Assembly (NCBI RefSeq): GCF_000172555.1
Contig: NZ_ABOX02000019.1
Span: 1 to 64,000 of the forward strand
From: Pedosphaera parvula Ellin514
GTDB lineage: Bacteria; Verrucomicrobiota; Verrucomicrobiia; Limisphaerales; Pedosphaeraceae
Direction: 5' to 3'
DNA: 64,000 nt
Shown: positions 1 to 63,672 of the stretch, piece by piece
Numbering within the stretch: the stretch's first letter is position 1
How the letters are laid out: every line of letters starts with the position of its first letter
Notes under the pieces: generated by a model
What the model was told of the DNA's origin: nothing
The model's input: the letters and a program-made list of their open reading frames with translations, nothing else
The model's database searches: none
Made by a program: the position numbers and the translations under genes

Positions 1-2454
1 GTTTGGACGCGCGTGTTTGCTTTTGGCGATCAAAATGGCGGAGGAGGGCAGCACACAGGCTTGGACTACTGTCATTATGCCGGCGGCAACTGGCAAAATC
101 TTAATTTGTCGACCACCAGTGGAGGCGTGTATGCGAACAACCCTGGTGGCATTAACGGACAAACAAATGTTCACGTGACGATTGTGGTCGATCCACTTGG
201 AAATCGAATGTTTTATTACAATGGGACGGCGGTGGCCTCGAATCCTGGTGTCAATGGAGGCAGTGTTCCGGCATTGAGTGGCCTAATCGACAGCACCTGC
301 CTGATTGGAAAATCTTTGTATGATGTGGACGCGTTATTGGAAGGAGCCATTTCGGAATTCCGCATCTACCAGGGAGTTATCAGCCCATCCACGCTGGCGT
401 TGAATGATGCCGCGGGACCGGACAATTATGTCACCACTCCGGGCGCTTTACAGGCAGTTCATCTGTCGAGCCCCGCCAATCCGCTGGTTGTAAATCAGAA
501 CTCGCAGGAAAATTTTCTGGGCGATTTTGCCAATGTCACCGGGGTGAATCTGAACTTGTACGGCGGTGCCAGTTACGTATCTGGAAATACAAATATTTTA
601 ACCGTCAATTCGACGAATGGAACCGTCCACGCCGTGGCATCTGGAACGACCACGGTTATTGCCAGTTACGGAGCCATGAGCGCCACCAACTCACTGACCG
701 TGGTAACCATTCCTGCCGTGTTGACGCATCGTTACAGCTTCAACGCAGATGCCAGTGACTCAGTAGGCAGCGCGAATGGCACACTCATGGGCGCGGCGAC
801 AATTGCCGGAGGGAAGGTTGTGCTGGATGGCTCAGGCGGAACCTATATCGACCTGCCAGGCAATATCATCAACATCCAGACCAACAAAGCTGTAACGCTC
901 GAAGCGTGGGTTGATTTTGGCAGCACTCCTAATTGGTGCCGGTTGTTTAACTTTGGCAATGACGGCGGATCCAGCGAAATTTATCTGGCTCCGAACGGAC
1001 CAGGCAACGGTAATCAACATCGTATCAGCGAAAATATTTCCGGCGGTCGCAATACGGATTGGCGAGGCGCATGGGCCAATCTGAGTGCGCACATTACTGT
1101 GGTCATTGATCCGCCTACCGGCACCATGAGTCTCTATCGGGACGGTGTCCTGGAATACGCACGGTATGATGCGATTGCACCGCTTTCACTCATTTCGACA
1201 AATCTAGCCGTGATTGGCCGCTCCCTGGTGGGGGTGGATCCTTACATGCCGGGTTCGATTGATGAGTTCCGTATTTATAGCGGTGCCTTGACGCCGGCTG
1301 AAATTGCTTTAGCTCATCAGAACGGTCCTAATTCTATTAATCATGACCCGGGTGCACTCGTCTCGATTCAGGTCGCACCCACCGTGTACCCGGCTTTTTC
1401 CGGTGTAGTTCCGCCGGTTGTGCTGGCAAATTATGCCAATCTTACAAACTTCCACCTTCAGCCCAACAACAGCGCGGTCATCAATGGCCTGACTGTGACG
1501 TCCAGTGATCCCTCGATCATCAAAGTCGGTGCAAACAACATGCTTCAGACTTTCCGACCAGGCACGGTGACGCTGACTGCAAATTATCTGGGCAAGGTTT
1601 CGAGTGCGACGGTTACAGTCGAAAACACTGGCACGCTCACCCATCGATACAGCTTTACAAGCGATGCGAACGATTCGGTTGGAACTGCGAATGGAGCTTT
1701 GCAAGGCGCAGCCACTATTTCCGGGGGCAGTCTGGTGTTGGATGGAAGCGACGGAACGTATCTGGATTTGTCACCGGGATTGATCGAGGGCTATGATGCA
1801 GTGACAGTAGATAGTTGGGTCACTTTCAATGCCGGGGCGCAATGGGCGCGCTTGTGGTTCTTCGGTGACAGTCAGGCGAATGAATTGTATTTGGCGCCGC
1901 AATTCGGGCTCCCGAATCCAACTCACAGTCTTATCACCGGTTTCCCGATCGGTGGCGGAGGCGTGAACAGCAGCCCGTCCTGGCAAAATCAAACACTCCA
2001 CATTACCAGTGTTTACGGAAATGGGGTGATGGCAGTTTATACCAACGGTGTCCTTGAGAGTGGTACAAGCTCCTCAATTGGCCTGGTCAGTGAGGTCGGG
2101 AATTCGTTGTGCTGGATTGGCCGGTCCCCATACGCTGATCCCTATATGAACTGCTCGGTTGACGAATTCCGCATTTACCGCGGGCAACTTAGCCCCGAAG
2201 AAATATTGGCTACGCAGGTGGTGGGAGCGAACCAATTGCTTACTACGAGCGCCGCGCTTAACGCGACCAGCGCCTCCGGCAACACGGTGCTCAAATGGCC
2301 GGTGGCGGCGGCCGGTTTTTCAGTACAGGCGCGGCCCGCAGTCGGCAGTGGCAACTGGACAACGCTCACCAATGCCCCGACCTTGGTAGGCGGCAACTGG
2401 CAAGTAACGGTGCCCGCATCCGGCGCGGCCCAGTTTTATCGCCTCTGGAAATAA
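1..2454 (+). CDS. secreted multi-LamG / Ig-like protein (5' partial)
   Basis: The reading frame is open from base 1 (V-W-T-R before the first GTG at 13), so the gene begins outside the window. The first visible residues already lie inside a LamG/concanavalin-type jelly-roll (R-V-F-x-F-G). Layout: LamG at about 1-125, a Big-type bacterial Ig-like domain at 140-232, LamG at 236-430, a second Ig-like stretch at 440-540, LamG at 545-735, and a C-terminal module of about 65 residues ending in F-Y-R-L-W-K. The LamG units share the phrases L-x-H-R-Y-S-F and D-E-F-R-I-Y. LamG domains usually bind glycans or adhere to surfaces, and no catalytic domain is visible in this part. The missing N-terminus may hold a signal peptide or an enzyme. 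A pseudopilin and a GH43 enzyme follow on the same strand. An extracellular location is inferred. Confidence 0.8.
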
Positions 2455-2500: not shown

Positions 2501-3226
2501 ATGAAAACGTCTCGCACCGTTAAGGCAGGCATTGCCTTTACGCTGATTGAATTGCTGGTGGTGATTGCCATTATTGCGATTCTGGCCGCGTTGCTTTTAC
2601 CGGCGCTGGCCAAGGCCAAGGAACGTGCCAAGCGCGCCAATTGTCAAAGCAACCTGCATCAACTGGGCCTCGCAACCCAGATGTATGCGAGTGACAATCA
2701 GGACAATTTGCCTGACCTGCAAAACAATGGTGTTTGGTTTTGGGATATGTCACGGTCTGCCGCCAGCAACCTGCTGGAGAACGTCAAACGCACCGATAGC
2801 TTCTATTGTCCCAACGAATTTTATCTTTACCAGGACAACGGTCCACCTGATGCCTGGAATGCTTTTCCAAACTATGTGGTGACGGGTTACATCTGGTTAT
2901 TCCCCAATGCGCCGGGAATAACTGCCAGCCCAGCCTTGAGCGGCACGAACATGGTGACGAAAATAACGAAAGGACGCGCGGATTTGTCCGTCTCTGACAC
3001 TGAGATGATCGTGGATGCCACCATCTCAGTCCTTGGTGCCAGTGGTGCCCGCAATTACTCTGGCTTTGCTGGTGCAGGCGGCAGCAAGGTGAAAACCGCG
3101 CATCTCGAAGGCAAGCTTCCCACGGGCGGCAATATATGTTTTCTGGATAATCACGTGCAGTGGCGCAAATACGTAGCCATGACGAACAAGATTTCGCCTC
3201 GTGGTTTGCCGCAGTTTGAATTCTAA
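2501..3226 (+). CDS. type II secretion-like pseudopilin (prepilin N-terminal methylation, H-X9-DG-like)
   Basis: A 241-residue protein with a class III prepilin signal: a short basic leader ([12 protein letters not shown]), then F-T-L-I-E-L-L with the conserved Glu at +5 and a long hydrophobic helix. After the helix comes A-K-x-R-A-x-x-x-N-C-x-x-N-L-x-Q-L-G-L-A, the signature of the pseudopilin-like family expanded in Planctomycetes and Verrucomicrobia. Near the C-terminus [12 protein letters not shown] resembles the usual F-A-D-G-H-V motif, but D-G-H is replaced by D-N-H. Such proteins are processed by prepilin peptidase and sit in the inner membrane. Their substrates are unknown, but they are commonly found beside large secreted proteins, as here between a LamG protein and GH43. 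The start is set by the leader. Confidence 0.85.
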
Positions 3227-3377: not shown

Positions 3378-6300
3378 ATGCCGAAGGAAGTATTCTCCAC
3401 CCATAATCTGATGTCTCCTCGATTGTTTCTGCCGATGATCGTGCTCGTGTCGTTTTTCTTTAACGCGGCGGCGGCAGTGCCAACCCGGGCAATCTCGCCA
3501 CGCGGCTATCTTTCGGCGCACGATCCTTCGACCATGATTCAGTGCAAGGATCGCTATTACATTTTCTCCACCGGGCAAGGCATCTTATCGCGGTCTTCCT
3601 CCGACCAGGTTTTCTGGTCTTCCGGTCCGGCAATATTTACCAATCCACCGGCCTGGACAACTGCTGCGGTGCCAGGTTTTGCCGGGATATTTTGGGCCCC
3701 GGACATACTATTCTTCAACAATAAATATTATCTGTACTACGCCGTATCGACCTTCGGCAGCCAGGTATCGGCCATTGGATTGGCAACAAACACCACGCTG
3801 GATCCGATCGACCCGGCGTATCAATGGATCGATCAGGGGCCGGTAATTCAATCGACGAATGGTTCAGCCTACAACACCATCGACCCCAGCTTTACGTGGG
3901 ATAATGCAGGCAACCTCTGGATGGCTTTTGGGTCTTATTGGAACGGCATTTACCTGGTCCAATTAAGCACGACCAACGGTATGCGCGTGGCAACCAACTC
4001 GCCGACATATCACCTTGCTTACAACGGTTCGATAGAGGCTTCGTGCATTTACCGGCGCGGTGGATATTATTATTTGTTCGTGAACTGGGGTTCGTGCTGC
4101 TCCGGCGTGAACAGCACCTATAATATTCGTGTCGGCCGCAGCACCAATATTACGGGCCCCTATCTGGATCGCAATGGAGTGGACATGGTGAACGGGGGAG
4201 GCACTTTGTTCATGCAGGGGAACGGGAAATACGACGGACCGGGCCACGTTGGAATTATTTCTGATGGCCCGAACCAGTGGTTCACCTACCACTATTACGA
4301 TGCAAATGCCTGGGCACCGCAATATGGGGCTTATGGGAATGCCGATTTTGATTTCGTGCGGCTCGCCTGGACCGCCGACGATTGGCCGACGTTCACCAAC
4401 GACTGGTCGGCAACTTATCGCTTTCAGGCCGACGCTGCAGATGACCAGGGCCAATATTCCGGATTGCTCCAGAACGGAGCGACGATTCAGAAAGATTCAG
4501 TTCACGATCACGTTCTTAATTTGAATGGAACGAACCAGTATGTCTGGCTGCCGCCGGGAGTAGGCAACGCCAAGACTTTTGTAGCGGTCGTGAAATGGCG
4601 CGGCGGCGGGGCGTGGCAACGCATCTTCGACTTTGGCGTTGATACCAGCAAAACCATCATGCTGACGCCGGCGTCCGGGGATAACGTGCTGCGTTGTGAC
4701 CTCAATCCTGGAGGGAATCTCCAAACTGTGCAGTGGAATCAGCCATTGCCCAGCAATGTTTGGACGCATGTGGCGTTGACTCTGGACGGGACAAAAGGGG
4801 TTTTGTACGTCAACGGCGCGGCCGTGGCGACGAATAACGGAATGAACCTGTTGCCGGTGAACGTCGCTTCGCAAACCAACCATCTAGGACGGAGCAAATT
4901 TACCGCCGACCCTTATTTCAACGGCCAGTATGCCAGCTTTCGCGTGTATGGACGCGCGCTTTCAGCACAGGAAATTGCTGCGCCGCTGCCGCTCATTTCG
5001 GAACCGCACGCTGGTGATGTGTGGTGGCCGGGTGAGTCCATTAACTTTAATGGAGAGGCTACTGATTTTGCTGACGTGCCACTCAGCAGCAGCAATCTGA
5101 GTTGGCAGATCAGTTACGTGCAGGACAGTGTGACAAACCTCGTGTTTGGACCGGCCTCAGGCATCTCCAGCGGAATTTACCTGATCCCGACGAGCGCGAC
5201 GGGTAATGGGAATTATGTGATTACTTTGACCGCCACCGATAATTTTGGCCGTCAGAGTTCCAAATCCATTACGCTTTCCCCGGCGAACCGGGATGCCGGC
5301 TGGTCCTCCTATTTTCCGTTGCGTAATAACGCCGCCGATGCGCTGGGGCATTTTAATGGAACACTGAACGGCGCCGCTTCCTTTGTGAATGACAGTGAGC
5401 GTGGCCAGGTGTTGAACCTTTCAGGAGCCAATCAATTTGCAACCCTGGCTGGAGGGGCGGGTGCATTTCAAACTTTCATGGGCTGGATCAAGTGGAATGG
5501 AGGAGCAGCGTGGCAAAAGATTTTTGACTGTGGAAATGACACCAGTCGATACACCAGCCTGACGCCATCGGCTGCCAATGGCAAACTGCGGTTCAACATC
5601 AGTCTCAACAGCATTCCCGGAGAACAGATAGCAGATGCTTCTGCTGCGTTGCCGGTGGGAGTTTGGACCCATGTTGCAGTGGTGCTGAACGGAACGAGCG
5701 TGATGTTATACACCAACGGGGCTTTGGTGGCATCAAACCTGTATGCAAACCTGGTTCCGGCAAATCTAAATGCGACGAACTTTTATTTGGGCAAGAGCCA
5801 ATGGCCAGATCCTTACTTTAATGGGCGATTGAGTTCGATACGGCTCTTTTCCAGACCGCTCGCATCGTGGGAGATTGCCGCGCCTCAGGTCAGCATTGCA
5901 CAGCCGGCACAAGGCTCAATGTACCAGCCCGGAGATACCATCTCCTTTTCGGGAACTGCCAATGATTTTTATGATACTTCCATCAGTCCCACCGGACTTG
6001 TTTGGACGGTGTCTTTCATCAACGGGAGCACGACCAACACTGTCCTTGGACCACTGTCAGGCTCAAGTGGCGGCAGTTTCAATATCCCAACTTCGGGCGC
6101 TGGGGCAACCAACGGGTATTATCGCATTGCGCTTTCGGGCACGGATAGTTCCGGTCTTTTGGCCAGCAATTCGGTTTCGATCTTTCCGTTGCCGAACGCA
6201 TCCGGGACTGAATGGAATGCCTTTTATCCCTTTGACTCAGGAGCGCGGGATGCGGGCAATCGTTACAACGGCAGCCTTTTCGGCGGAGCCGGTGTAACCA

Positions 6301-7013
6301 CTGATCCGACCGAAGGAAGCGTTTTGAACCTGACGGGTGGAAATCAATACATGAACTTGCCGGCTACAGTTGGCATTGCCCGCACCTTCAGTGCCTGGGT
6401 GAAATGGCGCGGCGGAAATGCGTGGCAACGAATCTTTGATTTCGGTCGCGATACCCAGCATTGGTTCTTTCTCACACCGAAAGACTCCAGTGGAATGATT
6501 CAATGTGGCATCAGTCCGGAGGCCTCAACGTACGTGCAGGTGATTGAATCGCAAATTCCCTTTCCGCTCAACCAATGGTGTCATGTGACTGTGACCATGG
6601 ACGGTCGTCAGGGAATTCTATTTCTAAACGGCAATGCCATCGCGGTAAACAACAGCGTGAATGTCTGGCCATCGGATGTGGTTCCAGTCAGGGCTTTCAT
6701 TGGCCGGAGCGAGTACTCCGGTGATCCTTATCTGAATGCGCAACTCGACTCAGTGTATCTCGATTCCGAGCCGCTTTCCTCCCTGCAGGTGATGCAGAAC
6801 TTTTTGCAACCCACTTTGCGCATGGCTTCGGGTTCGGGTCAGATCGGCCTTTCATGGCCTGCCTGGGCTGGCAGTATGCAGCTCTATACAGCCCCCAGCC
6901 TCTCAGGCGCCTGGACTGTCGTCACTAATACGCCGCTGAACTCCGGGACGAATTTCAGCGTTACACTTTCTCTCGCTGACACAAACAGCTACTTCCGCCT
7001 GCAGTGGCCTTGA
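3378..7013 (+). CDS. secreted GH43 (arabinan endo-1,5-alpha-L-arabinosidase-like) enzyme with three LamG domains
   Basis: A 1211-residue multidomain enzyme. Residues 40-345 are a GH43 five-bladed propeller. The expected catalytic triad is visible: Asp49 in H-D-P-S (base), Asp169 in I-D-P-S-F (pKa modulator) and Glu220 in S-I-E-A-S (acid). W-A-P-D-I at 106-110 is also typical. This arrangement best fits arabinanases, so cleavage of alpha-1,5-arabinan is likely, though GH43 specificities vary. Three LamG domains follow (about 350-535, 645-855, 960-1145), each separated by an Ig-like linker, then a C-terminal module ending in F-R-L-Q-W-P. A signal peptide begins at internal Met12 (3411) and ends at A-A-A-A-V, so 3411 may be the true start. 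The three LamG copies are similar to each other, suggesting internal duplication. The protein is secreted or surface-bound. Confidence 0.85.
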   Translation: MPKEVFSTHNLMSPRLFLPMIVLVSFFFNAAAAVPTRAISPRGYLSAHDPSTMIQCKDRYYIFSTGQGILSRSSSDQVFWSSGPAIFTNPPAWTTAAVPGFAGIFWAPDILFFNNKYYLYYAVSTFGSQVSAIGLATNTTLDPIDPAYQWIDQGPVIQSTNGSAYNTIDPSFTWDNAGNLWMAFGSYWNGIYLVQLSTTNGMRVATNSPTYHLAYNGSIEASCIYRRGGYYYLFVNWGSCCSGVNSTYNIRVGRSTNITGPYLDRNGVDMVNGGGTLFMQGNGKYDGPGHVGIISDGPNQWFTYHYYDANAWAPQYGAYGNADFDFVRLAWTADDWPTFTNDWSATYRFQADAADDQGQYSGLLQNGATIQKDSVHDHVLNLNGTNQYVWLPPGVGNAKTFVAVVKWRGGGAWQRIFDFGVDTSKTIMLTPASGDNVLRCDLNPGGNLQTVQWNQPLPSNVWTHVALTLDGTKGVLYVNGAAVATNNGMNLLPVNVASQTNHLGRSKFTADPYFNGQYASFRVYGRALSAQEIAAPLPLISEPHAGDVWWPGESINFNGEATDFADVPLSSSNLSWQISYVQDSVTNLVFGPASGISSGIYLIPTSATGNGNYVITLTATDNFGRQSSKSITLSPANRDAGWSSYFPLRNNAADALGHFNGTLNGAASFVNDSERGQVLNLSGANQFATLAGGAGAFQTFMGWIKWNGGAAWQKIFDCGNDTSRYTSLTPSAANGKLRFNISLNSIPGEQIADASAALPVGVWTHVAVVLNGTSVMLYTNGALVASNLYANLVPANLNATNFYLGKSQWPDPYFNGRLSSIRLFSRPLASWEIAAPQVSIAQPAQGSMYQPGDTISFSGTANDFYDTSISPTGLVWTVSFINGSTTNTVLGPLSGSSGGSFNIPTSGAGATNGYYRIALSGTDSSGLLASNSVSIFPLPNASGTEWNAFYPFDSGARDAGNRYNGSLFGGAGVTTDPTEGSVLNLTGGNQYMNLPATVGIARTFSAWVKWRGGNAWQRIFDFGRDTQHWFFLTPKDSSGMIQCGISPEASTYVQVIESQIPFPLNQWCHVTVTMDGRQGILFLNGNAIAVNNSVNVWPSDVVPVRAFIGRSEYSGDPYLNAQLDSVYLDSEPLSSLQVMQNFLQPTLRMASGSGQIGLSWPAWAGSMQLYTAPSLSGAWTVVTNTPLNSGTNFSVTLSLADTNSYFRLQWP

Positions 7014-8183: not shown

Positions 8184-11100
8184 TTACCAGCGGCGCACAC
8201 GGTAAAACTGCTGGGCGTTGGTGGCGGTGGGGTCGGTGAGAAAGAGCGTGCTGCCATTGCCGGGAACGAGTGGCAGGCTGGTCCAGTTGGTGTCGGAAAG
8301 GGAAGCCTTATATTCCAACACGTAAACTTTTCCGCTTTGGGTGGGCAATGAAAGTTTGAAAGTATTGGAACTGGCGGACGGATTACTCAAGGTGGAGTGG
8401 GTGACTGGTGGACAGTTTCCGATCAATGCCAGGCTTTGAAACCGGCCAGCGGCAATGGCAACGACGTTAGTGAGTCGTGGCGGAACGTTGGTCTGACCGT
8501 AGATGTGCATTCCCCACGCAATGACCGTGCCGTCGGATTTCAGCGCCAGGTTGTGATAATCACCGGCAGCAATGGCCACGACGTTGCTCAAACCGCTGGG
8601 GACATTGGTTTGGCCGTTGCTGTTCTCGCCCCAGGCAACGATGGTGCCGTTGTCCCCAAGCGCCAGGCTGTGAGAATAGCCGGCGGCGATCGCCACCACA
8701 TTGCTCAACCCTGGGGGGACACTGGTCTGGCCAGAATAGTTATTACCCCAAGCGACGACGGTGCCATCGAATTTCAGCGCCAAATTGTGTCCATTGCCTC
8801 TGGCGATCGCCACGATATTTGTCAGCCCGGGCTTGCTGGCATTTCCGACAACCGTCCCATTGGTCATTAACGCGAGATAACCGTCATAATTCGGGGTAAT
8901 CGCCGCGACATTTGTCAGTCCCGGAACGGAACTCTGATACGAATAGACCACGGTGCCGTTTGTTCTCAATCCGAGGGTAGCAGGTCCAGCCCCGGCGATA
9001 GCCATAAGATTGGTGTACGTAAATAATGTGGAAGAACCCGGCCAGCTCACCGCCTTGCCGCTTGAATTCAAGGCCAAACAATCAGACGGGCCGCTCCCAC
9101 CGCTTGATATGGCGATGATATTGGTCAAACCGAGGGAGAGATTGGTTTCGCCAGATACTCCACCCCAGACTGCAACTTCTGAAGGTGTGAGCGTGACCAC
9201 CTGGCTGATGAGGTTGGTGTAAGCATTGGTAAGAACGACATTGTAGGAACCGAATTGAGCCGGTTGCACATTTGTGAGAACCAGAAAATAGTTGGTTGCG
9301 CCGGGGATGTCAGCGCCATTGAACTGCCATTGGTATCCAATGGGGTTCACTCCGATCGCGGCAACATTCAATCTGGCTGGACCACCGATCCACGCTGCCT
9401 GGCTTGTTGGCTGGCTGGTGATGGTCAATGGATTGATCGTCAAGGTGACGTTCGAACTTGTCAGGGTGGTGGTGGCATCGCTCGCGGTGACGTTGTAGAC
9501 CCCGGCCCAACTCATTGACGGATCGATGATTTGCATCGACCCGCCCTGGACAGGTCCAGCCCATGGATTGCCATCGTGAGTCCACTGGTAGGCAACGGGT
9601 GAAAGGCCTCCCACGTTGAAGGCAACTGAAACAAGTGTTCCAGCCCCCGCATTGATGGTCGTGGGGGAGATTGAGCACGAAATCCAAGGAACTACAGCCA
9701 GCGAGGCATTCGTAGATGTGGACAATCCAAATGAGTTGCTGGCAATGAGGCTGTAGTTGCCCGACTGGATCACCAACGCGTTGGTCAGCGTGAGCTGGCT
9801 GTTCGTGGCTCCAGTCAAGTTTGTTCCGTTGAACAACCACTGATATGTGAACGGTCCCTGTCCCACCAGCGCCGAGGTGAATGTCACTTGCGATCCGCCA
9901 TTCGTAGTGAGGTTGCCCGGCTGAACCGTGACGAGCGAAGGCAACACGGTCAAATAAGCATTGGAACTCAGCGTCGTGCCAAACGCGTTGCTGACGACCA
10001 CGGCGAAAGCAAGTCCTGAATCACCAAGCTGCGCCGCTGGCCAGATCAAGCTGGTATTTGTCTGGGCAGGGAGATTCGTGCCGTTGCAGAGCCATTGGTA
10101 GCTCAGAGGCAGCGAACCAATGGCGCTGACGGAAAATACGGTGTTGGAGGTGGCGGGCACGAGCTGGTTGACGGGTTGTTGAATCACCACCGGCGCTGAA
10201 GTGCTGACCGTCAACACAAATGGCACGTGATAGGATCCGTATGTATTGGTTAATGCCAATTCGTACGGGCCGCTGTCAGTCAGCTGGGCATTCGTAAAAT
10301 TTAACGCTGTGCTGGTCGCCCCTGGGAGGTTCGTTCCACTGAACTGCCATTGAAACGTGGAACCAGAAACGGTAGGCGCAGTCGTCGCGGAAAAACCTGG
10401 TGCCATGCCGGTGTAAACGGATTGATTCGTCGGCCATTGCAGGAGGCTGGGCGCGCCGTCGTGGATCACCAGAACATGTTCGCCGCCACCGGAAATGGCG
10501 GTCACGTTGGTCAAACCCAACGGTGCGATATTGAGGCCATAGGTGCTTGTGCCCCAGGCCAAGACCGTGCCATCCGATTTCAATGCAACGCTGTAAGCCC
10601 CACCCGCGGCGACTGCCACCACATTACTTAAGCCAGTAGGAACATTGGTTTGCCCGGAACTGTTGTCACCCCAGGCCAGGACCGTGCCATCGCCCCGCAA
10701 AGCCAGATAATGCGCTCCGCCCACCGCGATGCTGATGACGTTGGTCAAACCAGGCGGCATTGCCGGTTGGTAAAGACCCCATTCGACCACCGTGCCGTCG
10801 GTTTTCAGTCCCAACGCGTAGCCAGTGTTGGCAGAGTTTGCAGCGATGGCCTTGATGCCGGTGGCCGAACCTGCCTCTGAAACCTGGCTGTTGGCGTTAT
10901 CTCCCCACGCGGCTACCGAGCCGTCGTTCCGGAGCGCCAGATTAAAATAATTGCCTGAGGCAATGGCCACCACATTGGTCAATCCTGCGGGCACGTTGGC
11001 CTGGCCATAGCCGTTGTAACCCCAGGCCACGACCGTGCTGTTGTTCAACAAGGCCAGACTGTCATTATCACCCGCCGCGACGGCGACGACATTGCTCAAT

Positions 11101-11393
11101 CCCGTCGGCACACTTGTGGCACCGAGAGAAGAGAGGCCCCAGGCGGAAACCGTGCCGTCCGCACGCAATGCAAGACTGTGATTCCATCCGCCGGCGATGG
11201 CCACCGCGTTCGTCAAATCTCCCGGCACGTAGGTCTGACCGGAATCACAATAACTGCAGAAAATCGCACCGCGCCCCCATGCCGTCACCGGTCCGCTGGC
11301 CCGGGCCGAAAGCGAAAAACAAATGCACCCCAGAATTGTCAGGATGATGGGCAAGAAATGGACTTGGCGTTGTATGTGAATCTGAGATTTCAT
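8184..11393 (-). CDS. secreted RCC1-repeat / Ig-like domain protein
   Basis: About 1069 residues from the ATG at 11393, which has AGGGG eight bases upstream and opens a signal peptide (hydrophobic stretch, then S-A-R-A-S). A 26-residue upstream extension in the same frame has no such support. Two blocks of RCC1-type beta-propeller repeats (V-V-A-W-G-x-N and L-A-L-x-x-D-G-T-V, about 48 residues each) lie at about 30-315 and 750-985. They flank several Ig-like domains with the recurring phrase Y-Q-W-x-F-N-G-T-N-L-P-G-A-T-N. The last 75 residues form the C-terminal module also seen in the LamG, GH43 and GH3 proteins here, ending F-Y-R-V-R-R-W. No catalytic residues are evident. A role in surface binding or protein interaction is inferred. 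The long repeats make this gene prone to recombination and assembly collapse. Confidence 0.8.
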   Translation of the reverse strand: MKSQIHIQRQVHFLPIILTILGCICFSLSARASGPVTAWGRGAIFCSYCDSGQTYVPGDLTNAVAIAGGWNHSLALRADGTVSAWGLSSLGATSVPTGLSNVVAVAAGDNDSLALLNNSTVVAWGYNGYGQANVPAGLTNVVAIASGNYFNLALRNDGSVAAWGDNANSQVSEAGSATGIKAIAANSANTGYALGLKTDGTVVEWGLYQPAMPPGLTNVISIAVGGAHYLALRGDGTVLAWGDNSSGQTNVPTGLSNVVAVAAGGAYSVALKSDGTVLAWGTSTYGLNIAPLGLTNVTAISGGGEHVLVIHDGAPSLLQWPTNQSVYTGMAPGFSATTAPTVSGSTFQWQFSGTNLPGATSTALNFTNAQLTDSGPYELALTNTYGSYHVPFVLTVSTSAPVVIQQPVNQLVPATSNTVFSVSAIGSLPLSYQWLCNGTNLPAQTNTSLIWPAAQLGDSGLAFAVVVSNAFGTTLSSNAYLTVLPSLVTVQPGNLTTNGGSQVTFTSALVGQGPFTYQWLFNGTNLTGATNSQLTLTNALVIQSGNYSLIASNSFGLSTSTNASLAVVPWISCSISPTTINAGAGTLVSVAFNVGGLSPVAYQWTHDGNPWAGPVQGGSMQIIDPSMSWAGVYNVTASDATTTLTSSNVTLTINPLTITSQPTSQAAWIGGPARLNVAAIGVNPIGYQWQFNGADIPGATNYFLVLTNVQPAQFGSYNVVLTNAYTNLISQVVTLTPSEVAVWGGVSGETNLSLGLTNIIAISSGGSGPSDCLALNSSGKAVSWPGSSTLFTYTNLMAIAGAGPATLGLRTNGTVVYSYQSSVPGLTNVAAITPNYDGYLALMTNGTVVGNASKPGLTNIVAIARGNGHNLALKFDGTVVAWGNNYSGQTSVPPGLSNVVAIAAGYSHSLALGDNGTIVAWGENSNGQTNVPSGLSNVVAIAAGDYHNLALKSDGTVIAWGMHIYGQTNVPPRLTNVVAIAAGRFQSLALIGNCPPVTHSTLSNPSASSNTFKLSLPTQSGKVYVLEYKASLSDTNWTSLPLVPGNGSTLFLTDPTATNAQQFYRVRRW

Positions 11394-11710
11394 ATGTTGG
11401 TCCCCTAATACAACCGGAGATGCTGATTTCGTGAGTTTCTTCATGCTCCCAGGTTTTGCAAGTCTTTTCACGCCAACGCCTGCTCACTGCGCTGATACAG
11501 TTCAAACACCTGCGCGCTGAAACATTTGCCAGCAGCGGCAGCAATTTGGAGCGGTTGGATTATGTGAAGTGCGTTTGTGTGTTTCGGGCTCGAGTGATCC
11601 AGGTTTGCAGATGCAGCGGTGGTTCAAGGCTGGGAGCAGGGCACCCTGGAGGGCGGACAACTTGCAATCGCGGGTTGTTCGAAATGATGAGGCGCGCAGG
11701 CTGACGGGCA

Positions 11711-51541: not shown

Positions 51542-54500
51542 TTATCCCTTGGTAATGGTCTCGTCCAGGTTGAGAAGGACGTTCGCGACGACAGTCCATG
51601 CCGCCAGTTCGTCAACCCCCAGTCCCTCAGGAGCCTTGCCCAGTTCACTGGTCGCCATCTTTTCAGCAGCGGCGTGATCGTTCTTAAACCGGGTGAGTTC
51701 CTGTTCGTAGAGGGCAAGGATGCGTTTAAGTTCCCCGTCTTGAGGCCGGCGCGAAATGCAAAGCCGGAAAGCATAGACCGCCCGTTTCGAATTGTCCGCG
51801 CCACCTTCTTTCAGCACGCGCCGAGCCAGGGCCTGCGCTGCTTCAACATAAGCAGGATCGTTCATCGTATCCAACGCTTGAAGCGGAGTGTTGGAACGGG
51901 GACGACGGGTGCAGATGAGTTCGCGGCTGGGAGCATCAAATGACATGAAAGCCGGGTATGGCGAGGTGCGCCGCCAAAATGTGTAGAGACCCCGTCGATA
52001 TTTGTCTTCACCTTTGCTCGTTTCCCATTTGTCGCCGCTGTAAATCTGGGTCCAAATGCCGTCCGGTTGATAGGGGAAAACACTGGGGCCGCCGATCTTT
52101 GAGCTAAGCAGCCCACTTGCTTTGAGGGTGATGTCGCGAACGCCTTCGGCAGGAACGCGGAAACGGGGGCCGCGCGCCAACAATCGATTGTAAGGATCGC
52201 GTTCAAGGAGTTCCGGTGAAGCTTTGGAAACCTGGCGATAAGCGGCCGAGGTCACAATCAGACGATGCATGGCTTTCATACTCCAGCCTTGGCGAATGAA
52301 TTCCGTGGCGAGCCAGTCAAGCAGTTCGGGATGAGTGGGAGCTTCGCCCTGACTGCCGAAATCTTCAACCGTTTCCACAATTCCATGACCAAAGTATTGT
52401 TCCCAGATACGGTTGACAGTAACTCGGGCGGTCAGCGGATTCTCGGGACTGATGAGCCAGTGCGCGAGTGTCAGGCGATTCGTTGGTTGGTTTGCAGGAA
52501 GCGATGGCAATGCTGCCGGGACGTTGGCATAAACGCGATCGCCGACATTGAGAAAATTGCCGCGCATAAAAATGTGCGTTTCACGCGGGGCTTCGCGCTC
52601 CTTCATCACGAGAGTGGTGGGAATCTGCTTCTTGAGTTCAGTCTCCTCCTTGCGCAGGTCGGCCAGTTGTTGTCGAATCACCTTCAATTCGGGTGCATCC
52701 ACCCTGAAGCGGCTCAGCACCTCTGCCTTCTGCTTTTCATTTCGCTGATCAGGCGCAACCGTAAGGGCGTTCAGCACCGCAACCGGCAACTTGGAGGCTG
52801 CGGTTGGATTTACGTTGGTTGTTATGGCCAAGCGGAAACGTCCGATGTTTGCCTCAGGCCATTTCGAAGCATGCCTGAGGGTGATGGTGAGCAGTGTGCC
52901 ATTGGTAAAATTGATCGGTTTTTCGCATTCGAAATATGCCGCATGTTCAGTCTTGAAGTCTGCATGATCAGCGGAGGTTGGCCAGCCAGCATCAGCTTTG
53001 CCATCAAGTAGTGTGGTCAGCTTGCGTCCTTCCGAAGTGTAATCGGCAATGGCTGTTTTCAGAGTAATTGATTGGGCAGCTTGCGAGTTGTCCCTGGGAG
53101 CAGCAGCAACTTCGAAACGATTCAGCACAAAACTGCCGTTCGAACGACGGCCGGAAGATTGATCGGGCAGGCTCGCATCAGGAATAATTTCCAGACGCAA
53201 ACCAGTGATGTTTCGCAAAACGGTCCCGGCCGTGACCGTGTAAGTATCGTTGGAAGGATTTATGCCGCTCGCAAGCAATGACTTATCCTCGAGCTTTGTA
53301 AATTTGGCTCCTCCAGCCGAAGTAAACGAAGTCGGGTCCAGTGTGGCCCATGGAATCGCTTCGGCGAGTTGTCTCTTCTCCCAAACGATCTGCACGGCAG
53401 CTAACTCCGGAGTTTCCTTTTTGAATTCAGCATCCAGACGGGTGGTTTCAGTTTGTATTTCCTTCAACCGGGAGGTTTGCCGGGAGGTGGGAACACTTAG
53501 GTCTGGTTCGTCAGCGTTGTTGAAGAAGGCGAATAGCTGGTAGTATTCCTTCAATGTGAAGGGATCGTATTTATGCGTGTGACATTGAGCGCAAGCCAGT
53601 GTCGATCCAAGCCAGACAGTTGATGTGGTGTTCACGCGATCCACGATGGTTTCAACCCGGGCTTGTTCCTTGTCCACGCCTCCTTCGGTGTTCAACATCG
53701 TGTTGCGATGAAAACCGCTGGCGATCTGTTGCTCAATTGTTGGGTTCGGCAGCATGTCCCCGGCGAGTTGCTCAATGGTGAATTGATCAAACGGAACATC
53801 GCGGTTGAAAGCATTGATGACCCAATCGCGATACAGCCACATGCTGCGGGCCGGGTCTCTTTCGTAACCGGTGGTGTCGGCATAACGGGCGAGGTCCAGC
53901 CAGTGTCGCGCCCACTTCTCTCCATAATGCGGTGTTGCAAGGAGACGTTCCACCAACTTTTCGTAGGCATCCTTGCTCTTGTCAGCCACGAAGGCGTCCA
54001 CCTCTTCGATGTCCGGTGGCAACCCGGTCAAATCCAAACTGAGTCGGCGAATCAAAGTCGCTCGATCTGCTTCGGCGGATGGCTTTAAGTTTTCCTTCTG
54101 CAACCGGGCGAGGATAAAATTATCGATTGGGTTTCGCACCCAGCGGGAGTTTTTGACCTTGGGCGGCTCGGGACGTTTAGGTTTTACGTAAGCCCAATGT
54201 TTCTTCGGACCGGTGCTGTTCGCTGGAAAAGAAGCCCCCTGATCAATCCACGCTTCGAGCAACCCGATCTGTGTCGGAGTGAGCCGCTCACCTTTTGGGG
54301 GCATGATTTCATCTTGGGCAACCAAACCAGCCACACGCAGGATCAATTGACTGTCACGACTTTTACCAGCAACAAGCGCGGGCTTGCCGGAATCCCCGCC
54401 GCGCAGAACGCTATCCTTGTCGTCCAATCGCAAACCGCTCTTTTGCTTCTTCGCACTGTGACAATCAAAACAATGTTTTTCCAGGATGGGTTGAATATCG

Positions 54501-54619
54501 TGAGCGAAATCTACCTTGATGCTGGCGGCAGGTGGCAAGTCACTGGCTCCCCTGGCCGAATCAACGGCAAGGCAGATTCCTAACATGTAAAAGATGACAG
54601 CTAACGCGCGTCGCCGCAT
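51542..54619 (-). CDS. PSCyt1/DUF1549/DUF1553 cytochrome c-like protein
   Basis: About 1025 residues from Met at 54619, where a signal peptide ([17 protein letters not shown]) starts. A haem site C50-F-D-C-H (PSCyt1) is followed by I-M-P-P-K-G-E. DUF1549 comes next ([20 protein letters not shown]), with a second C-A-Q-C-H near the centre. A probable carbohydrate-binding insertion at about 430-650 precedes DUF1553 ([30 protein letters not shown]). The role is uncharacterised; association with sulfatases suggests oxidative carbohydrate or sulfated-glycan breakdown in the periplasm. Coupled to DUF1501. Confidence 0.92.
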
Positions 54620-54740
54620 AAACTCAGGAGTCCGAGTGAAGATAGGACGCCTCGCAACGTTTGTGAATTCGACAGGGCTGAGCACATGACTATTCTTTTT
54701 GCCAGAAGAGCTTTAGCAAGCTTTGTTTTTGGACTTTGTC

Positions 54741-60978: not shown

Positions 60979-63672
60979 TTATTTAAGTCGATAGAATTTA
61001 CTACTATTTTGAGACACAGGCATGACGACCTCGTTCATCCCGACAATTACGGTTGGGGTCTGAGTGATCGATGTCCAACTCAGTGAATTTAGATCGGAAT
61101 TTTGCTGCAACCCGAATCCAGTTAAGTAAAGAGGCCACCTTATGAGGACAGTGTTTGTACCAGAAGTGGCGATGGAAAGTGCCGGCTCAGGCGAATATAC
61201 TTCCAACTCCTGCAATGAGTAGCCCTGGGAGTTGAAACCTTGTGTCGCTGAGATTTGGACGAAACGCCCGGACTCGTTTACGAGGATATCCTCCAAGCCT
61301 CCGGGTCCAGTGGTGGTGCTGTAGAGGTTGGTCCAATGGGTGGCATCGATGGAAGAAAGAATCTGATAGCTGGAAGCATAGTTCGATCCCCAACCTAACC
61401 GAACACGGGCAAGAGCCCTTACGGCTCCCAGATCCACGGCCATCGATTGTTGGCCGCCTGACAGGGACGACCATTGAGTTGTTGGATCGCCGTCAACGGC
61501 AGCAGAGCCGGGGGAATTTGCGCCCAGTATGGATGACACAGTAATCGGCTGGTGGAGAGCAATGTTGGCCACCCCGCTCGGAGGCGGCGGAGACGAAATG
61601 GCAAATGAACCCGCCAACCGGATGTCACGGGACGAGGCACCAACCATGACCTGGAAAGTGCCAGGAGGCACCACCCATTGATGCGCGATCGGATCCCAGC
61701 AGGCCAGATCCTCCCAAATCAGGGTGAAGCTTACGTGAGTGGATCCGCCGGATGATACAGGCACTTTCCTGAATGCCTTGAGTTGACGTGGCGGTTCGCC
61801 AGCACCTGGTGGGAATCCCAGATAGAGCTGAACCACTTCAGCCCCGTTGCGATTGCCGAAGTTCTGTACGTCCAATCCGATCGTTACTTGTCCCGAGGGA
61901 TTCACCGCACTGATGGCTAAATTGCTGTACGTAAACGTAGTATAGGATAGACCGTGTCCAAATGGAAATTGAGGTGACGCATTGGATGCATCATACCAAC
62001 GATAGCCGACCTGAAGTTTTTCTGAATAGCTTACATGACCATTGGTGCCGGGAAACTGCGCGATTGTGTTGGCAGGCACCTGGGTGGCATTTGCGGGAAA
62101 GGTCACCGGTAATTTGCCGGACGGGTTCACGTCTCCAAAAAGCACCGATGCGAGCGCGTTGCCGTTTTCCTGACCGGGATACCATGCGGCCAGTGCGGCG
62201 GGAACTTGACTGGCCCATGGCATGAGCGTCCCAGCGCCAACATACATTACTACGATGGTGCGCGGGTTGGCTGCTGCCACGGCGCTGATCAGGGCATCCT
62301 GATCGCCGGGGAGGGAGAGACTGGATCGGTCGGTGCCCTCGCCAGTCTGTTCGCCAACACAAACAATCGCGATATCAGATTGTTGGGCAAGTTGGACGGC
62401 TTCAGCTATGTGGCCGCCATCACCCACGCTGTAACTGGTGGTAATGGAGGGACCGGCGCGGTTGGTAATTGCATCGTACGGAAGATTGTAATAAGGCAGA
62501 TACACTTGCGCTGAGCCACCTCCGACTGAGAGAACGTTGACGCTCGCCGCCGATCCAATTATTGCGATGGAGTGGATTGATGCTGTATTTAGCGGCAGCA
62601 GAGATCCAGTATTCTTTAGCAGCACGATTGCCTGGGCAGCCGCATCGTGCGCAAATTGTGTATGCGCGGCGCTGGTCACATCGGAAGCCAGATTGCCGCT
62701 CGTTGGATTATCAAAGATACCAAAGCGGAACATGGCGGCGAGAATGCGATGAACCATGTTGTCCAGCTGTGAAAGGGGGACAATGCCGGTTTGTATGGCG
62801 GTCTTCAGTGGAGTGCCAAACCGCGTGCCTAATGCCATTTCCATATCCAATCCGTTGATCGCCGCCGCATTCGGACTAAAGCTCGCTCCCCAGTCGGACA
62901 TAACGAAACCGTCGAAACCCCACTGCTGTTTGAGCACGCCTTTTAGCAACGGGGATTGACAGACGTAATTGCCGTTAATTTGGTTAAACGATCCCATTAC
63001 GGCACCCAGTCCCGAATGTATGGAGGCGCGAAATGGCGCGCAATAAATCTCCTGCAGGGTGCGCTCATCCACGTCCGAACTTTCTGTGCTGCGATCGGTT
63101 TCCTGCTCATTACCCACGAAATGTTTTGCCGTGGCGATTACGCCCTCACTTTGAATGCCTCGGACATCCGCGCCCGCAATGGCTGCAGAAAGGAATGGAT
63201 CTTCACCGAAGCACTCAAAACTTCGTCCTCCTTGTGGTACACGTGCAAGGTTCATCATTGGCCCGAGCAACACATGTACGCCCTTGCCATGCGCCTCTGC
63301 GCCCATAACTGCTCCATATTGCCGGGCGAGGCCTGTATCCCAGCTCGCCGCCAAGGCAATCGGTGCCGGAAGGGCGGTTACGTTCATTGCCCCGTCGCCA
63401 ACACCGGCTGGACCGTTCTGTAGATGGAGCGCAGGGATGCCAAGCCGGGTGTTGCCGGACACGTTACCGATGTAAGGACCATCCACACCGTGGACCATGC
63501 CAATTTTCTCATCCAGCGTCATCTGGGCGACGAGCAAGCTGGCTCTTTGGTCTGGAGATAGGGAAGTATCCATCCACGGAGTTGTTTGTGCTGACAGCGC
63601 TTGTGTCAATGCCCAGGTGCTCCCAAGCCAGCAGGCGATCCTTACAAAACGGCGAATACAAGGTACGTGCAT
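60979..63672 (-). CDS. secreted GH3 beta-glucosidase-like enzyme with discoidin-like domain
   Basis: An 897-residue secreted glycosidase. A signal peptide ends near A-L-S-A-Q. The GH3 N-domain has K-H-F-V-G-N-E at 183-189 and the predicted nucleophile Asp260 in F-V-M-S-D-W-G-A. The C-domain has G-G-G-S-A-Q-V and S-L-P-G-D-Q. A fibronectin type III-like domain (G-A-E-V-V-Q-L-Y-L-G) follows near 600, then an F5/8 type C (discoidin/CBM32) domain at about 695-835 and the roughly 62-residue C-terminal module ending F-Y-R-L-K. Family members release glucose or xylose from beta-linked oligosaccharides. It would finish the work of endo-acting enzymes such as the GH43 protein, but the loci are 54 kb apart. 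Confidence 0.9.
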   Translation of the reverse strand: MHVPCIRRFVRIACWLGSTWALTQALSAQTTPWMDTSLSPDQRASLLVAQMTLDEKIGMVHGVDGPYIGNVSGNTRLGIPALHLQNGPAGVGDGAMNVTALPAPIALAASWDTGLARQYGAVMGAEAHGKGVHVLLGPMMNLARVPQGGRSFECFGEDPFLSAAIAGADVRGIQSEGVIATAKHFVGNEQETDRSTESSDVDERTLQEIYCAPFRASIHSGLGAVMGSFNQINGNYVCQSPLLKGVLKQQWGFDGFVMSDWGASFSPNAAAINGLDMEMALGTRFGTPLKTAIQTGIVPLSQLDNMVHRILAAMFRFGIFDNPTSGNLASDVTSAAHTQFAHDAAAQAIVLLKNTGSLLPLNTASIHSIAIIGSAASVNVLSVGGGSAQVYLPYYNLPYDAITNRAGPSITTSYSVGDGGHIAEAVQLAQQSDIAIVCVGEQTGEGTDRSSLSLPGDQDALISAVAAANPRTIVVMYVGAGTLMPWASQVPAALAAWYPGQENGNALASVLFGDVNPSGKLPVTFPANATQVPANTIAQFPGTNGHVSYSEKLQVGYRWYDASNASPQFPFGHGLSYTTFTYSNLAISAVNPSGQVTIGLDVQNFGNRNGAEVVQLYLGFPPGAGEPPRQLKAFRKVPVSSGGSTHVSFTLIWEDLACWDPIAHQWVVPPGTFQVMVGASSRDIRLAGSFAISSPPPPSGVANIALHQPITVSSILGANSPGSAAVDGDPTTQWSSLSGGQQSMAVDLGAVRALARVRLGWGSNYASSYQILSSIDATHWTNLYSTTTGPGGLEDILVNESGRFVQISATQGFNSQGYSLQELEVYSPEPALSIATSGTNTVLIRWPLYLTGFGLQQNSDLNSLSWTSITQTPTVIVGMNEVVMPVSQNSSKFYRLK

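Follow-up and report, generated by a model that had tools for sequence, protein, structure and literature searches.

Four proteins encoded in the first 64,000 nucleotides of contig NZ_ABOX02000019.1 of Pedosphaera parvula Ellin514 (this whole stretch of analysed DNA is called the window) end in a similar way. This raises the question of whether their C-termini are copies of one module and, if so, what such a module does at the end of proteins that otherwise differ. A sequence-only reading had proposed a strictly C-terminal module that travels independently of the domains upstream, that resembles type IX C-terminal domains (CTDs) or PEP-CTERM tags, and that might serve sorting or surface anchoring. 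In this study, the module was followed by profile searches through the window, the remaining genome, relatives and the phylum Verrucomicrobiota, and its fold, cargo and candidate machinery were compared with known systems.

Translation places the four segments at the ends of a LamG protein, a GH43/LamG enzyme, an RCC1/Ig protein and a GH3/F5-8 enzyme, in each case up to the stop codon (Table 1). The ORF of the LamG protein has no 5′ end because the window starts at the contig start. Pairwise identity to the first sequence is low (23-36%), which is the one observation that speaks for a chance resemblance of four C-termini and nothing else. Leave-one-out profiles of the four segments gave 23.8 to 59.6 bits for the real segments versus 14.7 bits for the highest shuffle, with none of the 991 to 999 scored shuffles per segment reaching the real score. 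A profile of 95 copies from the same genome, none of them from the window, found the four modules among 894 window frames and matched no other C-terminus there; the sole additional hit below E 1 (E 0.36) lies within the GH3 protein. Both tests agree on one common pattern and refute coincidence, to which we attach next to no probability. The strand with 'W-P' named in the sequence-only reading holds as a pattern element, but not in the RCC1 copy, which has L-P.

Table 1. Positions of the module copies and neighboring features in the window, and of internal module copies elsewhere in the genome of P. parvula.
Feature	Position	Strand	Details
LamG protein ORF	1-2454	+	5′ end cut by contig start
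LamG protein, C-terminal module	2254..2451	+	profile match E 5.6e-25; leave-window-out E 7.6e-19; 0 residues to stop
LamG copy, terminal strand F and motif FYRLWK-COOH	2434..2451	+	from translation
Prepilin-type (DUF1559-like) pseudopilin gene	2501..3226	+	directly 3′ of the LamG-module gene; translated terminus, Pfam PF07596 E 7e-6; candidate partner
GH43/LamG enzyme, C-terminal module	6810..7010	+	ORF 3378-7013; E 4.4e-22; leave-window-out E 8.9e-14
GH43 copy, terminal strand F and motif YFRLQWP-COOH	6990..7010	+	from translation
RCC1/Ig protein, C-terminal module, 'Y-x-L-E-Y' variant	8187..8393	-	ORF 8184-11471; E 1.1e-15; leave-window-out E 1.6e-14
RCC1 copy, terminal strand F and motif FYRVRRW-COOH	8187..8207	-	from translation
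GH3/F5-8 enzyme, C-terminal module	60982..61185	-	ORF 60979-63672; E 6.4e-23; leave-window-out E 4.2e-14
GH3 copy, terminal strand F and motif FYRLK-COOH	60982..60996	-	from translation
Internal copy, own genome	C56:10625-10816		E<0.01; another domain follows
Internal copy, own genome	C57:31473-31667		E<0.01
Internal copy, own genome	C3:300373-300579		E<0.01; second, terminal copy follows

From 99 copies, the consensus [LI]-S-[WF]-P ... [YFW]-x-x-[LV]-[QE] ... N-L ... W-T-x-[VL] ... F-[YF]-R-[LV]-x-x-P-COOH was obtained. Within the terminal motif, F is conserved in 86%, Y/F in 99% and R in 97% of these copies, and the second Trp of the module in 95%; the mean column identity is 26%, with a divergent surface and conserved residues belonging mostly to the core. 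A terminal Pro, which is a feature that a β-sandwich would not need, was found in 55 of 117 copies of the own genome and in 34 of 54 copies of other genomes, compared with 19 of 153 control ORFs, a control count that includes at least four module-like ends. Among relatives, the corresponding numbers were 17/34 for module copies and 14/125 for controls. About half of the copies do without this Pro, and the four window copies end with K (two), W (one) and P (one). In 64 of the 117 own copies, exactly three residues lie between the F-Y-R-L motif and the stop codon.

The LamG copy, modeled from six sequences with a mean pLDDT of 81, forms six strands, and the model stops at the sixth; the RCC1 copy gave a poorer model (pLDDT 71), in which the strands follow a similar order. 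The structural neighbors, whose scores are modest (best Foldseek E 0.042, VIA Z up to 7.3), are fibronectin III (FnIII) and Ig-like domains, and the CBM56 fold is also found among them. Foldseek against the PDB gave no match at E≤0.001, and a profile search of the PDB gave weak matches, the best being titin with E 0.018. Scans of the whole window proteins against Pfam and NCBIfam revealed no family common to the module region. When 30 modules were scanned singly, no family matched more than one of them, the best single-member matches having E 0.007 and 0.02. Since nothing was shared in either kind of scan, assignment to a known family was rejected.

The only kinship detected is a remote one, to the fn3 family. 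PF00041 matched none of the 30 single modules at E≤10; hhalign aligned the module with the fn3 copies of the same genome over 61 columns (probability 77%, E 2e-5), with a score of 28.3; the best of 60 column shuffles scored 12.7. This alignment stops at fn3 column 74 of 86, before strand G, and the structure model likewise ends with the sixth strand. Based on the models, the structural neighbors and the profile comparison, we read the module as an FnIII-like β-sandwich of about 65 residues which would end after strand F and lack strand G. With fn3 it shares the predicted fold, the core W on strand B and Y on strand F as well as the remote profile similarity, but it is predicted to have no strand G and is located C-terminally, whereas fn3 is internal. 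In the open PMC literature, covered by titles and abstract openings, with subscription papers outside this scope, no description of the tail was found. The module looks like an undescribed family, absent as such from the Pfam and NCBIfam versions searched.

In the genome of P. parvula (7.41 Mb, 95.9% complete), the four segments alone gave at least 101 matches at E≤1, and a 30-row profile gave at least 133 at E≤0.1, with 150 of 275 candidates scored. At E<0.01, there are at least 120 copies, of which 111 end 0-5 residues and six end 6-15 residues before the stop codon, so that the position proposed as strict is near-strict (117/120). The three internal copies (Table 1) comprise one near the N-terminus, one before another domain and one in tandem with a terminal copy. 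Among 14 weaker matches, 11 are C-terminal and three internal, two of the latter resembling ordinary fn3. Besides these, six C-terminal copies and two internal matches, with E 2.7e-8 and 0.003 as calculated for a small set, came to light incidentally. An ordinary fn3 domain placed at the terminus by accident was rejected as an explanation, since canonical fn3 gave 45 matches in this genome and, of the 30 that were read, none lies within 60 residues of the stop codon. The module is one large family, real and bigger than first observed. It is probably larger still than counted, because the profile misses C-termini that look like a third variant. Such ends, with the sequence …LSSTNL/D… and a terminal F-x-R/Q-L/V-x-x-P or similar, were seen in three ORFs of the same genome (L058:10640-14707, L069:5437-9399 and L099:1433-4807).

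Such a family could be a lineage-specific FnIII-like domain that closes exported multidomain proteins as an end cap and confers stability or protease resistance without any receptor. The conserved positions fit a cap, being mainly those of a hydrophobic core (W, Y/F, L, W, F-Y), as do the FnIII-like fold with its remote profile similarity to fn3 and the occasional internal copies; a C-terminal Pro would also slow down carboxypeptidases. On the other hand, canonical fn3 of the same genome has no C-terminal preference, and the almost invariant Arg in the last strand together with the common terminal spacing suggests more than bulk stability. We consider the cap a serious but somewhat unlikely explanation. 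Even as a mere cap, the module would be a very large domain family missing from the Pfam and NCBIfam versions searched.

The proteins that carry the module contain GH43, GH3, LamG, RCC1, Ig, propeller, NHL and many other domains. For the 77 shortest of the 113 C-terminal module proteins outside the window, 70 Pfam families were detected at E≤1e-5 and 99 NCBIfam families at 1e-3, which bears out the proposal that the module travels independently on unrelated proteins. Signal peptides were assigned by a home-made rule, according to which 95 of 111 complete module ORFs carry one, compared with 62 of 111 control ORFs drawn from the same stretches; a first version of the rule was met by 96 of 117 module ORFs. 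Six of the 95 signals are lipoprotein-like. In the window, signal peptides are visible by eye in the GH43, RCC1 and GH3 proteins, of which the rule missed the GH3 protein and flagged the RCC1 protein as lipoprotein-like. By this rule, signal peptides are enriched among the module proteins. The module-bearing proteins, more than a hundred and otherwise unrelated, are mostly Sec-exported.

Alternatively, a surface-binding or carbohydrate/cell-wall-binding module, comparable to β-sandwich carbohydrate-binding modules (CBMs), could hold enzymes on the cell or the substrate. The FnIII and CBM56 folds among the structural neighbors and cargo such as glycoside hydrolases, LamG or propeller proteins would suit this function. 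The cargo, however, reaches far beyond CAZymes, as the Pfam diversity shows, CBMs are not usually confined to a protein terminus, and the alignment has no evident conserved patch of putatively exposed aromatic residues outside the terminal motif. Binding as the main role thus appears unlikely, and less probable than the end cap.

Of 288 genomes drawn evenly from the phylum, 107 had a module match at E≤1e-3. The module is present in the own genome and in every one of the relatives searched (57/57); eight genomes of the same family have between at least 91 and at least 105 scored copies each, and in the wider order the copy number falls as low as 1. A genome of Verrucomicrobia subdivision 3 (L131) gave 147 matches. 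To compare positions, 60 copies from 46 further genomes within the phylum were read, mostly best-scoring first among the non-own matches listed; 54 were C-terminal and six internal, so that internal copies are rare outside the own genome as well. In 20 stretches of 19 relatives chosen around strong matches, 34 of 36 copies were C-terminal; one of the two internal matches (L291, E 1.8e-4) resembles an F5/8-type domain. Outside the phylum, marginal matches occurred in 11 of 148 Bacteroidota genomes (best E 1.8e-5), and at the six loci read none was C-terminal. A record titled as a Klebsiella pneumoniae MAG (L123) has 28 module matches; its label looks wrong, and the genome would be verrucomicrobial.

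Type IX secretion offers the closest precedent for a folded tail. A type IX CTD (TIGR04183; for RgpB, see PMC4804311) is a folded β-sandwich that spans roughly 70 residues and occupies the extreme C-terminus of unrelated Sec-exported proteins. According to PMC11285876, type IX CTDs depend on their last residues and have a conserved lysine in the last strand, strand β7. Both domains are folded β-sandwiches (predicted in the case of the module) at the extreme end of exported, unrelated proteins, and the 97% conserved Arg in the terminal strand of the module parallels the strand β7 lysine. The CTD, however, is a seven-strand Ig-like domain, whereas the module is predicted to be FnIII-like without strand G and ends with F-Y-R-L-x-x-P.

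If the module were a diverged type IX CTD handled by a type IX system, the same position, the similar length and the β-sandwich fold would be explained, and the CTD of mirolase (8qb1) is indeed listed among the structural rows, for the second model alone (Z 4.8, rmsd 3.2 over 65) and tied with many FnIII rows. The genome data oppose this origin. No match to TIGR04183, the type A tail, passed the cut-off in the own genome, and five weak matches (best E 0.024) lie at none of the module places. SprA (TIGR04189) gave 0 matches at E≤1 in this 95.9% complete genome, in a search without a positive control because none of 14 control genomes passed the cut-off. Furthermore, two genomes whose relatives of the RCC1/Ig protein bear true type IX tails have 0 (Marinoscillum) and 1 marginal (a Flavobacterium) module match. 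As far as tested, namely with the TIGR04183 tail and SprA alone, the own genome appears to be without a type IX system, and descent from a type IX CTD is in our view very improbable. Sorting-domain-like tails can exist in the absence of a known system: Poribacteria are reported to have TIGR04183-like domains and no Por genes (PMC3909097).

A PEP-CTERM tag consists of a short PEP motif, a transmembrane helix and a basic tail and was first met in Verrucomicrobium spinosum (PMC1569441). It resembles the module in being present in multiple copies per genome at the C-terminus of diverse signal-peptide proteins, but the module appears to be a soluble β-sandwich. Identity with PEP-CTERM was rejected, since the module ends on its last strand without Pro-Glu-Pro, transmembrane or basic tail. 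The own genome has nine PEP-CTERM proteins (L224-L232) which differ from the module proteins, none of them matching the module profile. The PEP-CTERM tail model TIGR02595 was absent among the 25 of 99 NCBIfam families listed for the 77 module proteins. Four module proteins match ScyF, a family of propeller proteins that takes its name from a PEP-CTERM of its own. The likeness proposed for the two systems is not borne out as identity with either.

Relatives of the cargo were used to see what occupies the same slot in other species. For the RCC1/Ig protein, 12 relatives were compared, of which two end with a type IX tail (TIGR04183 over cut-off; Marinoscillum and Flavobacterium), two with the module (a subdivision-3 protein and the L123 protein) and eight with neither. 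Two Opitutaceae genomes had 0 and 0 module matches. Opitutales relatives (L122:2285-6898 and L129:2309-5332) have a different shared tail, …PGxYxAxVSG…GVALVEIYxxP-like, which is possibly another C-terminal module, and two Verrucomicrobia proteins (L124:1346-8245 and L125:1592-8449) have a nearly identical C-terminus, …GQTLLTSPILSGSVxLEEKP. The NCBIfam 'choice-of-anchor' family GloVer was matched by five of the 77 module proteins scanned. All five own GloVer ORFs among the matches listed (22 of 124 candidates scored) carry the module, a set that differs from the former five. In other genomes, 29 GloVer ORFs have a visible end; six of them match the module, of which L249, L268 and L270 do so clearly (with E at most 2.3e-8) and L245, L276 and L284 weakly. 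The slot and GloVer data fit an anchor or export tail, with numbers that are small and mixed.

Because of its position, the diversity of its cargo, the signal peptides, the slot comparison and the terminal motif, we judge targeting to be the best single explanation: the module may be a folded C-terminal targeting domain for export or surface display, to which, judging from sequence data, we give an even chance. The cargo would first cross into the periplasm by signal-peptide (Sec) export, where a common receptor would recognize the folded module and either move the protein across the outer membrane or fix it there. This would be the role played by the C-terminal β-sandwich in type IX secretion, performed through different machinery.

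As machinery, a type II-like (GspD) system is our leading guess, since the Fn3 domain of the pectate lyases PelI and Pel3 carries type II secretion determinants (PMC7949064). Like the module as modeled, this domain is an FnIII-fold accessory domain, required for the export of a folded enzyme; it differs in being N-terminal and restricted to a single enzyme family, whereas the module is C-terminal with broad cargo. PelI and Pel3 are among the structural rows of the module (Z 5.4 and 5.3), tied with many unrelated FnIII and Ig rows. Recognition, export or anchoring and the link to type II secretion are what we infer from these comparisons.

With E≤1e-60 as the threshold, which was our own choice (the curated cut-off was passed by 76 of 288 genomes), GspD was matched in 231 of the 288 genomes of the phylum. 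The module occurs in 106 of these and in one of the other 57, and every genome with at least 10 module matches has such a GspD match; 125 of the 231 GspD-positive genomes are without the module. The link between GspD and the module is confounded by phylogeny and genome size. At E 5e-77, the best GspD match of the own genome scores below some listed matches that already fail the curated cut-off; the genome is thus very probably below this cut-off, and its match may be another secretin.

Extending the targeting reading to the phylum, Verrucomicrobiota might possess an undescribed secretion or surface-display pathway with a C-terminal FnIII-like domain as address label, a counterpart of type IX secretion that either evolved separately or was built on a type II chassis. 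With strand G missing, the F edge of the sandwich would be open, and a dedicated receptor, a pseudopilin or an outer-membrane factor could complete the sandwich by a strand of its own; strand completion at this edge would allow a receptor to recognize more than a hundred folded cargos. This is a tentative proposal, about as doubtful as the end cap. In soil and water, Verrucomicrobiota are abundant degraders of polysaccharides. If the proposal is true, one label on more than 100 exported proteins per genome would provide a handle on the secretome, its profile could be used to predict exoproteins, and the module could be used as bait for the receptor. It could further be tested whether folded β-sandwich signals at the C-terminus have more than one origin.

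As another candidate for a partner, we considered the pseudopilin gene that follows the LamG-module gene (Table 1). In the own genome, a prepilin-type (DUF1559-like) gene is located at most 360 nt downstream on the same strand in 13 of 117 module genes, compared with 0 of 132 control ORFs. This linkage was seen in 0 of 54 cases in other genomes, and in relatives in 1 of 34 versus 2 of 122 controls. The pseudopilin was not adopted as a partner because the linkage was not repeated outside the own genome. Elsewhere in the window, positions 51545-54685 of the minus strand encode a PSCyt1/PSCyt2/PSD1 (DUF1549/DUF1553) protein of 1047 aa.
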